DNA from: Arthrobacter sp. ISL-85
Lineage (GTDB): Bacteria; Actinomycetota; Actinomycetes; Actinomycetales; Micrococcaceae
Reading direction: 5' to 3'
Length of the DNA stretch: 64,000 nucleotides
Assembly: GCF_018613675.1 (NCBI RefSeq)
Contig: NZ_JAGGPQ010000001.1
Location: 62,001 to 126,000 of the forward strand
The notes below the pieces were generated by a model. It made no database searches. It was not told the origin of the DNA and saw only the letters and a program-made list of their open reading frames with translations. Numbering within the stretch: the stretch's first letter is position 1; each line of letters begins with the position of its first letter. The position numbers and the translations under genes were made by a program. Shown in pieces: positions 2,672-58,132 of this stretch.

Positions 2672-2958
2672 AGGGAACCTCTCCAATGATTCCCCGCGAA
2701 GGACGACGCCAGCGCACAGCGGCTTTGCAGTGGCACCCCCGGCATGGCGGCAGTGTGCCTGCCTTAGCGCAGCCAAACCACAAGAGCTCTTGCCTCCATT
2801 TGCGCCTGAAAAGAAGCATACGGGTTGCCTTTGAGAAGCTCTACGGGACTGCGTCCACGAGTCGCCTAATCTGCTTCTGCTCGTTCTGCTGCAAAGCCGA
2901 TATCGACCTTATGTAAAGCTGCTGGGGAGAAGGGGCAGGGAGATCCCTCCGCGGCCGG

Positions 2959-3300
2959 TCAGGAAAGGTTGTGGATTGCCCCTGCCCAGCGCGGACCGGA
3001 GACGGCCCGGCGGACCGCCCGGGCGCGGGTGTGAAAGTCGATCCTGGGGACCCGCAGGGAGTCGGCGGCTGGAGCGCCCGGGTCAGCGTGAGCTCGCTGC
3101 TCAATCTCATTGATGGTTGTTGTGCAGCGGTCGGTGATCAGTCCCATGCCGGCGTATTCGCGGACGGCGGCGATGCCTGCCACGGCGCCGGTCTTGGTGG
3201 TAAAGGGCCTGGACACGGCCATGACGGTGCCGTCCGGTGCTGTCAGGCGGAACCTGAAGGCTGATTCTGCGTCGATAAACAGTTCGAACATTCCTGCCAT
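2959..3300 (-). CDS. DUF1508 (YegP-like) family protein
   Basis: A 113-residue protein. Residues 4 to about 55 match the DUF1508 unit, a small beta-alpha domain: FELFIDAESAFRFRL, DGTVMAVS, then TKTGAVAGIAAVREYA. One unit is present; many relatives have two. The C-terminal half is Arg/Ala-rich and not conserved in any way I recognise. The frame stays open upstream to 3474, but AAAGGA lies six bases before the ATG at 3300 and the DUF1508 fold begins there. It diverges from the small HTH gene at 3621, with twin palindromes between them. Function of the family is not known. Confidence 0.75.
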   Translation of the reverse strand: MAGMFELFIDAESAFRFRLTAPDGTVMAVSRPFTTKTGAVAGIAAVREYAGMGLITDRCTTTINEIEQRAHADPGAPAADSLRVPRIDFHTRARAVRRAVSGPRWAGAIHNLS

Positions 3301-14492: not shown

Positions 14493-14837
14493 TCAGCCGC
14501 GCTTCCGGCCCAGGATCAGCGCCAGTAGTCCCCCGAAGACCAGAAACAGCAGGCCCACCACCAGCAGCCCGGTGTTGACGCCCGTGGTGGCCAGCGTCTC
14601 GGGGGCGGAGGCGCTGGCCACTGCCGGCACAGCATCCCTGGCTGATGTCGCGGCGTGGGTGCCCTGTGCGGGGGCGAGGTCGGTGGAAATCGTGTTCGCG
14701 GCCGTTACCTGGGTGACGGGCGGCAGCCCATCACTACCCGCTGTGGTGCCAGCGGCGTTGGCGGCTGCGCCACTTGAGACCAGAAGGCCGCCTGCGATCA
14801 CGGCAGTGAGCAGGCGTCGACGGACATTGCGCATCAT
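14493..14837 (-). CDS. Small sortase-anchored surface protein (LAxTG type)
   Basis: 114 residues in three parts: a signal peptide (MMRNVRRRLL, a hydrophobic core, cleavage near ANAA), a Thr/Ala-rich segment of about 50 residues with no fold I recognise, and a C-terminal sorting signal made of LATTG (82-86), a membrane segment (89-109) and the basic tail RKRG. LAxTG is the motif used by class E sortases of actinobacteria, so the protein is probably linked to the cell wall. No sortase gene is in the window. The Pro/Ala-rich secreted protein encoded just upstream on the same strand may be its partner. Confidence 0.78.
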   Translation of the reverse strand: MMRNVRRRLLTAVIAGGLLVSSGAAANAAGTTAGSDGLPPVTQVTAANTISTDLAPAQGTHAATSARDAVPAVASASAPETLATTGVNTGLLVVGLLFLVFGGLLALILGRKRG

Positions 14838-24153: not shown

Positions 24154-24277
24154 CCCCCGTCCCTGTTGGATCCGGCACCGCCATTTTCACAGCTTCCGCT
24201 CACCTGGCGTTTACCTTCCCGCCGTAGCGTTAAGCGTGGAGAGCAGGCACCCTCCCGCCGGCTCAAAGGGGGCAACG

Positions 24278-56809: not shown

Positions 56810-57415
56810 ATGACCATTGCCCACGAAGAAGCGGTTATCGATCCGGCAGCCGTGGACGCGATCTTCGCCCAGGCCCGCACTGCCAACTCCTTCACCGGGG
56901 AGGTGACCGAGGAGCAGGCCCAGGCCATCTATGAGCTCACCAAGTTCGGCCCCACCGCCTTCAACTCCCAGCCGCTGCGCGTCACCTACGTTCGCTCCGA
57001 CGAGGCACGCGCCACCCTTGTGGACGCCCTGTCCCGCGGCAACCAGGCCAAAACAGCGTCTGCTCCGCTCGTGGCCATCCTCAGCTACGACACCGACTGG
57101 GCCGGCAAATGGGATAACTTCCTTCCCGGCTACAACGCCCCAAAGGCCATGTTCGACGCCGACCCGGCCCTTGCCGCCGCCACGGGCAACAACAACGCCC
57201 ACCTGCAGGCCGGCTACTTCATCCTGGCAGTCCGCTCCCTCGGTTTCGCCGCCGGCCCCATGACCGGCGCCAACTTCGACGCGATCGACGCCGCCTTCTT
57301 CCCGGCAGGCGACCAGAAGAGCTTCTTGGTGGTCAACATCGGCCAGCCCGGCGAGGAAGCCTGGGGCGAGGCCAAGCCCAAGTTTTCCTACGGCGAGGCC
57401 GTCCGCACCGTCTAA
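56810..57415 (+). CDS. RutE-like malonic semialdehyde reductase (nitroreductase family)
   Basis: 201 residues of the FMN-dependent nitroreductase fold in the HadB/RutE branch: ARTANSFTGEVTEEQ, LTKFGPTAFNSQPLR, GNNNAHLQAGYFILAVRSLG and AGPMTGANFDAIDAAFF. RutE-type enzymes reduce toxic malonic semialdehyde from uracil breakdown to 3-hydroxypropionate. AAAGG precedes the ATG. It faces the uracil-type permease gene, which fits, but rutA-D are absent. A complex repeat array starts four bases after the stop codon. Confidence 0.84.
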   Translation: MTIAHEEAVIDPAAVDAIFAQARTANSFTGEVTEEQAQAIYELTKFGPTAFNSQPLRVTYVRSDEARATLVDALSRGNQAKTASAPLVAILSYDTDWAGKWDNFLPGYNAPKAMFDADPALAAATGNNNAHLQAGYFILAVRSLGFAAGPMTGANFDAIDAAFFPAGDQKSFLVVNIGQPGEEAWGEAKPKFSYGEAVRTV

Positions 57416-57418
57416 CCC

Positions 57419-57602
57419 CCGCTCACGTTTGACGGTCTTTCATCAAACGCCCGCTCACGTTTGACGTTCTTTCTCTAAACGCCCGCTCACGTTTGACGTT
57501 CATTCTCTAAACGACCGCTCACCCTGGTGAGCGGGCGTTTGAGTTTTAGGCGTCAAATGTGAGCGGGCGTTTTGAATTTGGCTGCGAAAGATGAGCGGGC
57601 GT
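57419..57602. repeat. Array of 32-bp units around a perfect palindrome
   Basis: Three direct 32-bp units (57419-57450, 57451-57482, 57483-57514) start CCGCTCACGTTTGACG and end AAACGC or AAACGA. The perfect palindrome CCGCTCACCCTGGTGAGCGG (57515-57534) follows. Two inverted 32-bp units (57535-57566, 57567-57598) start GCGTTT and end GAGCGG, and a partial third begins at 57599. Unit 1 has its own GTTTGA/TCAAAC arms. There are no spacers between units. The transcript of either strand would form a large branched structure just behind the RutE-like gene. Confidence 0.8.
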
Positions 57603-57634
57603 CTGATGACGGGTGGCAGACTGGGGCCATGCCG

Positions 57635-58132
57635 ATGCGGAACCTGATATTCGTGGCGTTCTTGGAGCCGGTTGCCGACGGCCAGGTTTTCCTGCGGACG
57701 GAGTGGCCGCTGCACATCACGCTGGTGAGGTTCGACGCCGGCAGGCAAGACAGTGCGGACGTCACCGAACGCATCGCCGGGCTCGCTGACGCGCCGGCGG
57801 CCGCGGCGCTGGGAGCCGCGCTGACGGTAGGGGAGGACGCCGCCTTCGGCCGCAACGGTTCAGTGCCGGTCAACCTCATCCAGCCCCAGCCGGACCTTCA
57901 GGCCCTGCACGGGCAGTTGGTTGCCGCCGTCGACGCCCTGGGTGGCAGGATCCTTACGCCCGCCCACACCCTTGCCGGGTACCGCCCCCACGTCTCACAT
58001 CACGGTGACAAACGCCTCCACCCGGGCGACGCCGTCGTGCTTGACCGCGTCGCCCTGGTGGACATGGCTCCCGACGGCGACCACACCATCCGGCGCGTCC
58101 TCCGGCTCTGGAGCCGCGAAGGTGAAAGCTAG
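57635..58132 (+). CDS. 2'-5' RNA ligase / cyclic phosphodiesterase-type protein
   Basis: 165 residues of the 2H phosphoesterase superfamily. The two catalytic motifs are HITLVRF near residue 29 and [10 protein letters not shown] near 119 (HxT and HxS forms), with the expected spacing. Such enzymes open 2',3'-cyclic phosphates or join RNA ends. Among in-frame ATGs at 57572, 57629 and 57635, the first lies within the repeat array; GGGG at 57623-57626 is eight bases before 57635. Its stop overlaps the end of the convergent phosphoglucomutase gene by four bases. Confidence 0.78.

Follow-up and report, generated by a model that had tools for sequence, protein, structure and literature searches.

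A dispersed 3′-end array element built of 32-bp units in Arthrobacter sp. ISL-85, in its genus and in another genus of that family

The window, a stretch of 64,000 nt from the genome of Arthrobacter sp. ISL-85, contains behind a nitroreductase-family gene one copy of a dispersed 3′-end element of its own genus and of a second genus in the same family. The element is built of 12-bp heads at a 32-bp step, and the head word is mostly common to one genome and different between species. We tentatively read it, at somewhat less than an even chance, as a two-layer DNA element, in which phased sites for a putative co-evolving host DNA-binding protein would be combined with a core hairpin that would end transcripts.

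The heads of the window array read ACGCCCGCTCAC and were counted with at most one mismatch over the eight fixed positions of the 12-bp head. They form two arms that face inward around a 28-bp core (Table 1). The pattern CCGCTCA-N(15,25)-AAACG gave five matches in the window, compared with a mean of 0.11 and a maximum of 2 in 100 shuffles, which bears out the three direct (57419, 57451, 57483) and two inverted (57536-57566, 57568-57598) 32-bp units reported in the first-pass annotation. Other parts of that description changed. The centre, taken for a perfect palindrome, reads CCGCTCAC-CCTG-GTGAGCGG, with perfect 8-bp arms and, between them, a CCTG that is not self-complementary. A start four bases past the stop codon had been given; CCGCTCA starts at 57419, but the first head already opens with the final A of the stop codon (57413-57415). 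The sequence near 24197, TTCCGCTCACCTGGCGTTT, proposed as a broken copy of the centre, was not counted as a relative because it has neither an ACGC head nor a 32-bp partner. A lone head, ACGCCTGCTCAC, likewise without a 32-bp partner, lies at position 14806 on the minus strand.

The plus strand of the array is predicted to fold with −114.2 kcal/mol (z = −9.31). A scan of the window array for T-run terminators called none at the core and one at 57443-57464. Compared with Rfam, the region 57200-57800 reached 36.3 bits at best, with a cut-off of 101.7, and all other models stayed below their own gathering thresholds. The mechanically called open reading frame of the downstream RNA ligase gene begins at a TTG inside the array (57572-57629); translation more likely starts at the ATG at 57629.

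Table 1 Coordinates of the window array, its neighbouring genes and related features at other loci (L, locus)
Feature	Position	Strand	Details
Whole array	57415-57602	.	Four + heads, 28-bp core, three - heads; 32-bp step within each arm
Head 1	57415-57426	+	ACCCCCGCTCAC, one mismatch; first A is the final base of the stop codon
Head 2	57447-57458	+	ACGCCCGCTCAC
Head 3	57479-57490	+	ACGCCCGCTCAC
Core hairpin	57511-57538	.	+ head ACGACCGCTCAC (57511-57522), CCTG, - head (57527-57538); head-to-head distance 16
Inverted head 2	57559-57570	-	ACGCCCGCTCAC read on -
Inverted head 3	57591-57602	-	ACGCCCGCTCAT read on -, one mismatch
Nitroreductase-family gene	56810-57415	+	Pfam PF00881; ORF; stop codon adjoins array
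2′-5′ RNA ligase superfamily gene	57629-58132	+	Pfam PF13563; gene model; behind array
Intragenic three-head arrays	L215 1501-1576; L256 1520-1595; L044 8543-8618		M20 (two species), E2; frame kept
60-bp hairpin loci	L184, L186, L188, L191, L193, L195, L197-L199, L204, L206, L207		

In the ISL-85 genome we found about 20 arrays, mostly between called genes, and further arrays in relatives; the element is a dispersed palindromic repeat, and the repeat family suggested in the first pass is therefore more than a single copy in the genus. An array either combines n forward with m reverse heads around a core or has a single arm only. The 10-mer CGCCCGCTCA occurs 86 times in this genome and its reversed control 20 times. 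Among the copies listed, 17 stand alone and the rest lie in or beside arrays; because these lone copies are no more numerous than in the reversed control, single sites are not enriched. All nine inverted CCGC pairs that the exact pattern detected in this genome are inside arrays.

Two ACGC-NNNN-TCAC heads 32 bp apart were present in 36 of 295 genomes of the family: in 19 of 24 from the own genus, in 15 of 22 from the second genus and, with one match each, in 2 of 249 from thirty other genera. The reversed control yielded one match among the matches listed. Within 150 genomes of the genus, CCGC pairs were detected in 49 and CCCA pairs in 25, a few of them being chance matches. A scan of contigs returned at least 114 stretches, many of them single matches in unrelated taxa; the array-bearing stretches among the matches listed with titles came from Arthrobacter, Pseudarthrobacter or Paenarthrobacter. 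Phage and plasmid records gave no match to the window array, with the window dialect as the query. Eight tandem matches on viral contigs were not counted: seven have two differing words per pair and the eighth lies in a 16-bp repeat. We found no publication on this repeat in the literature covered by our searches on intergenic, palindromic, tandem or interspersed repeats of Arthrobacter or Pseudarthrobacter; the RepRanger paper, in its accessible part, gives putative REP counts for one Arthrobacter species (PMC12306157).

The inner four bases of ACGC-NNNN-TCAC vary by species, with CCGC, CCCA, TCTC, GTCC and others in use. When the word was left open in the search, 35 of 41 head pairs in genome G000 were purely CCGC, and 37 of 49 in G056 purely TCTC. 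We also counted exact heads in the fetched arrays, most of which had been found via the 32-bp pattern (those of G000 and several other genomes via CCGC). Here, TCTC made up 73 of 92 heads in G056, 66 of 102 in G125 and all 30 in G058, while GTCC or TTCC accounted for 24 of 25 in G002 and CCGC or GCGC for 93 of 99 in G052. Purity is incomplete: words are mixed in G052, G106 and G125, and CCCA arrays exist in the ISL-85 genome.

The spacing of the heads is strict. In 177 arrays, 450 of 473 same-strand neighbouring heads are exactly 32 bp apart, or 273 of 296 if the one ascertained step per array is subtracted. In the gene-anchored sample, which was not picked by spacing, 32 of 34 steps measure 32 bp and two measure 33 bp, and an even sampling of 800 kb of G052 gave eight pairs of exact heads close together on one strand, seven of them 32 bp apart. 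The step is kept although the centres between the heads differ widely. All plus heads precede all minus heads in 97 of the 102 two-sided arrays; the other 75 of the 177 arrays lack an inverted arm. In the gene-anchored sample, all 24 pairs of inverted neighbours face inward, and nine of them are single hairpins. The consensus of 419 units reads (A/G)-ACGC-N-C-(G/T)-C-TCAC, behind which come a T-rich step, a stretch resembling G-C-G-G and, near position 24, an A/T-rich part, with G nearly missing at positions 14, 16, 24 and 25; strong conservation is limited to 12 of the 32 bp per unit. These spacing rules favour the protein-binding array that had been among the earlier suggestions, with the binding protein itself as a putative component.

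The distance between the inverted neighbours at the core (n = 102) is 14-19 bp in 25 cases, 24-26 bp in 49, 31-36 bp in 10 and at least 46 bp in 18, several of the latter enclosing degenerate units or another hairpin. The class means are 16.0, 25.0, 34.8 and 46.8, the last being the single-hairpin form, and a linear fit gives 10.2 ± 0.5 bp per class. Among the 75 cores listed with an open pattern, lengths of 27-30 bp occur 27 times, of 35-38 bp 34 times and of 45-48 bp 14 times, with none of 31-34 or 39-44 bp; the fetched arrays put few cores in these valleys, two of 31 bp and one of 43 bp. Valley lengths were found for none of the 75 listed cores but for 63 of 168 generic hairpins of the fetched loci (p = 1e-12, or 2e-8 with the 37-bp class counted once), a comparison that is indicative only, since the generic hairpins were measured differently, by their outermost arms, and this measure blurs the classes because stems extend beyond the heads. 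Measured in this way, 98 head-bearing hairpins show no clean length classes. When core lengths were scanned for a period, the peak fell at 9.25-9.5 bp and not at 10.5 bp, so that the match to the helical repeat is only rough. The quantisation also reflects fewer independent events than the counts, since the cores of the 37-bp class and those of the single-hairpin class are each alike, probably through one descent. The inner arms of the 37-bp core are complementary to each other in several species (TTTC..GAAA, for example). At L047 (about 2805-3020), L174 (about 2300-2640) and L311, a different strong hairpin inside the array, for example AGCGAACCCTCCTGC...GCAGGAGGGTTCGCT, replaces the usual core, as if units had been added around a pre-existing terminator.

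Growth by duplication of units, proposed in the first pass, agrees with the sequences of the centres. In adjacent units on the same strand, the 20-bp centres agree on average at 78% of positions (177 pairs), compared with 50% between different arrays of one genome (0.497; 2019 sampled pairs) and 40% between different genomes; because neighbours are so much more alike than units of different arrays, units multiply by local duplication. The centres of the two arms within one array are 44% alike (0.441; 184 pairs), below the 50% for other arrays, so a long RNA or cruciform rod is not visibly kept beyond the heads and the core. Of the RNA structure suggested earlier, the heads and the core hence stand, and a giant RNA hairpin was rejected because the outer arm centres are not mutually complementary.

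Arrays are placed at gene ends. We assigned neighbouring genes with a simple codon-usage caller, excluded the orthologue set from the counts and took array-free gaps of at least 60 bp at the same loci as controls. The 77 two-sided arrays with callable neighbours are located in ++ (26), +- (29), -- (19) and -+ (3) gaps. Divergent gaps hold 3 of these 77 arrays but make up 42 of 130 control gaps (p = 4e-7), and convergent gaps are in excess, with 29 of 77 compared with 23 of 130 (p = 0.002). One-armed arrays lie behind a same-strand gene in 49 of 66 cases, compared with 58 of 130 control gaps (p = 8e-5), and the median distance from the same-strand stop codon to the first head is 12 bp (n = 55). 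At L174 and L263 the arrays overlap the end of a called gene. Between codirectional genes, two-sided arrays have more antisense than sense heads in 13 cases, equal numbers in 18 and fewer in 14. Because antisense heads equal sense heads here, the mirrored layout belongs to the element itself.

Three arrays are intragenic, in the M20 peptidase genes of G125 and of G056 and in the dihydrolipoamide acyltransferase (E2) gene of the ISL-85 genome. Each has exactly three heads (96 bp, a multiple of three) and no inverted core, with one mismatched head in two of the three. The M20 array falls into a stretch of ~50 residues (roughly 148-199 of the L215 protein) for which the two solved relatives shown have a bridge of 4-9 residues, and the L256 protein has a similar unaligned stretch. 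This suggests that units can enter genes and grow there if the frame is kept. At several loci, close pairs of arrays enclose ordinary-looking genes, for example ones whose sequence suggests a VOC-like or an Lrp/AsnC-like protein or a TetR-like regulator; a mobile gene between arrays was rejected.

The 3′ slot of the nitroreductase gene was surveyed in the best 30 of the 145 genomes that matched the nitroreductase orthologue. In these 30 species the slot contains arrays or cores with CCGC, CCCA, TCTC, or GCGC with CCGC, a relic (G133) or, in 12 of the species, a lone 60-bp hairpin whose head is ATGC-NNNN-TCAC and which has a GATGCYCTATCACTTATGGTCCC-like arm with its mirror. The heads of this hairpin are 46-47 bp apart in the nine species where both were found. 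On a one-gene tree, with 7 of 27 inner branches strongly supported and one label given to mixed or relic slots, the slot type changes at least 13 times, and arrays and hairpins switch at least 8 times. At L204 (G126) and L205 (G122), the motif GGTTGAGCCTGTCGAAAC or GGTCGAGCCTGCCGGAAC stands immediately before the hairpin or array and looks like another dispersed repeat. About 40 bp past the nitroreductase stop codon at L209 (G068), a TCTC unit is followed by unrelated sequence that resembles an inserted element.

In the two-layer element that we favour, the heads would be contact sites for one sequence-specific host DNA-binding protein along one face of the helix; the 32-bp step corresponds to about three turns of the double helix. 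A change in the specificity of this binder would carry the genome-wide word along. The core hairpin would end transcripts arriving from either side, and heads and core together may mark and seal the ends of transcription units. The arms would lengthen and shorten through duplication and loss of 32-bp units. The model is favoured by the strict step, the core length classes, the inward polarity, the placement at gene ends, the dialects and the unlike arm centres. Several observations speak against it, among them the mixed words of some genomes, the few cores in the length valleys, the probable single descent of two core classes and the period peak below 10.5 bp. Equal numbers of antisense and sense heads between codirectional genes are not required by simple termination of the upstream gene, and the window core has no called T-run terminator.

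The main rival to this two-layer element is somewhat unlikely in our view. It regards the arrays as selfish repeats, REP- or MITE-like, that a putative transposase would mobilise in trans; gene ends would be harmless sites for their insertion, and the word would be the recognition end of the subfamily that expanded last. The turnover of the nitroreductase slot, the three intragenic arrays and identical units at distant loci in G106 and in G126 argue for such repeats. However, the Y1 transposase (RAYT, PF01797) that the first pass had named as a possible partner was missing from all 42 genomes searched, of which 21 contain CCGC arrays and the other 21 have no CCGC tandem pair; 5 of 14 control genomes were positive. 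The restriction of strong conservation to 12 bp, with centres only about half alike between the arrays of one genome, is unlike recent copies, and inert copies are not expected to keep a strict 32-bp step and stepped core lengths. Bidirectional intrinsic terminators that act as RNA only, with outer units adding stem pairs or stabilising the 3′ end and repeats arising by replication slippage, appear unlikely. The 3′-end position and the strand rule point to them, as do the strong fold of the window array, the complementary inner arms of the 37-bp core in several species and the intragenic arrays, which are tandem units without a core. Yet the outer arm centres are not complementary, the one-armed arrays offer no inverted partner, a T-tract terminator was not called at the window core, and the genome-wide word, the exact step and the gaps in core length would be left unexplained by RNA alone.

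Some readings extend to the chromosome as a whole. In a test of two chromosomes, on which core genes may themselves be denser toward the origin, the 24 strict arrays of G052 all lie within the first 0.742 of the distance from dnaA to the far point (KS p = 0.027) and the 43 listed for G106 within the first 0.727 (KS p = 2.9e-6), which leaves the outer 26-27% free of them. In 400-kb samples of G052 from the terminus and the origin side, hairpins (52 vs 40) and convergent gaps (23 vs 20) are as frequent near the terminus as near the origin. Both results favour marker sites on a chromosome scale, like those of SlmA or Noc or of nucleoid organisers, that would be kept off the terminus. But the samples hold few arrays (strict 0 vs 3; relaxed pairs 6 vs 8), and all relaxed pairs on the terminus side belong to one two-sided variant-head array at 2.008 Mb, ~0.75 of the way and just inside the far quarter; we judge such marker sites very unlikely. 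A previously undescribed chromosome-marking system, in which a fast-changing putative binder would read a 12-bp word every three turns in inward arrays that lie at gene 3′ ends and are sparser toward the terminus, and in which word and protein would co-evolve into species dialects, seems unlikely. Dialect-bearing DNA uptake signals like those of Neisseriaceae would share the 12-bp words in a fixed frame, the dialects and the inverted pairs at gene ends, but the excess of the 10-mer in the ISL-85 genome does not extend to its lone copies, and we give this reading hardly any credence.

Palindromic repeats are common at gene ends, and REP elements and BIMEs of the GTAG/RAYT type are short dispersed extragenic palindromes, often at 3′ ends, that occur as inverted pairs or clusters and have species-specific subfamilies. 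The array family is also short, dispersed, mostly extragenic, palindromic and located at 3′ ends. It differs from them in that RAYT was absent from the genomes searched and GTAG from the consensus of the 419 units, and in its exact 32-bp tandem step, inward heads and stepped cores; the alternating orientation of BIMEs was rejected given the uniform order of plus and minus heads. CGTC-tagged REPs, according to the accessible part of their description, have no dedicated transposase, are predominantly head-to-head dimers with stems of 8-9 bp and loops of 4-5 bases, and occur in five phyla without Actinobacteria (2013, PMC3733652). The arrays are like them in their head-to-head pairs and in having no RAYT in the genomes searched; their unit has G at position 32 in ~43% of cases, giving GCGTC on the reverse strand. 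In contrast to the stems given in that part of the description, array head stems are 12 bp and often longer, and 32-bp tandem units are absent from it (PMC3733652). A CRISPR array appears unlikely, as the similarity of neighbouring centres and the restricted conservation of the unit do not follow a pattern of identical repeats and unrelated spacers.

DNA uptake sequences are present in high copy number. Those of Neisseriaceae are, in the accessible part of the source, short words with species dialects (PMC3630211). The heads described here differ in being clustered in arrays, with no enrichment of single sites. Noc sites are excluded from the terminus. Binding sites of Noc and SlmA are scattered and sequence-specific, those of SlmA being more abundant near the origin, according to the accessible parts of two sources (PMC4331003, PMC4117426). 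The array sites, in contrast, are tandem, phased and at gene ends, and their binder is putative. Bidirectional intrinsic terminators place a hairpin behind convergent genes; the arrays differ from these in their tandem 32-bp units, their genome-wide word and a window core at which no T-tract was called. The accessible descriptions of REP families mention neither a strict 32-bp phase nor a single inward polarity, stepped cores or a head word that is common to a genome and differs from species to species. If the element were only a selfish repeat, it would still have a clear growth unit and no known transposase. If instead a protein reads the word, the arrays would represent a natural co-evolution of binding site and binder over dozens of loci in culturable soil bacteria, and the genome-wide homogenisation of repeat words would become directly testable.
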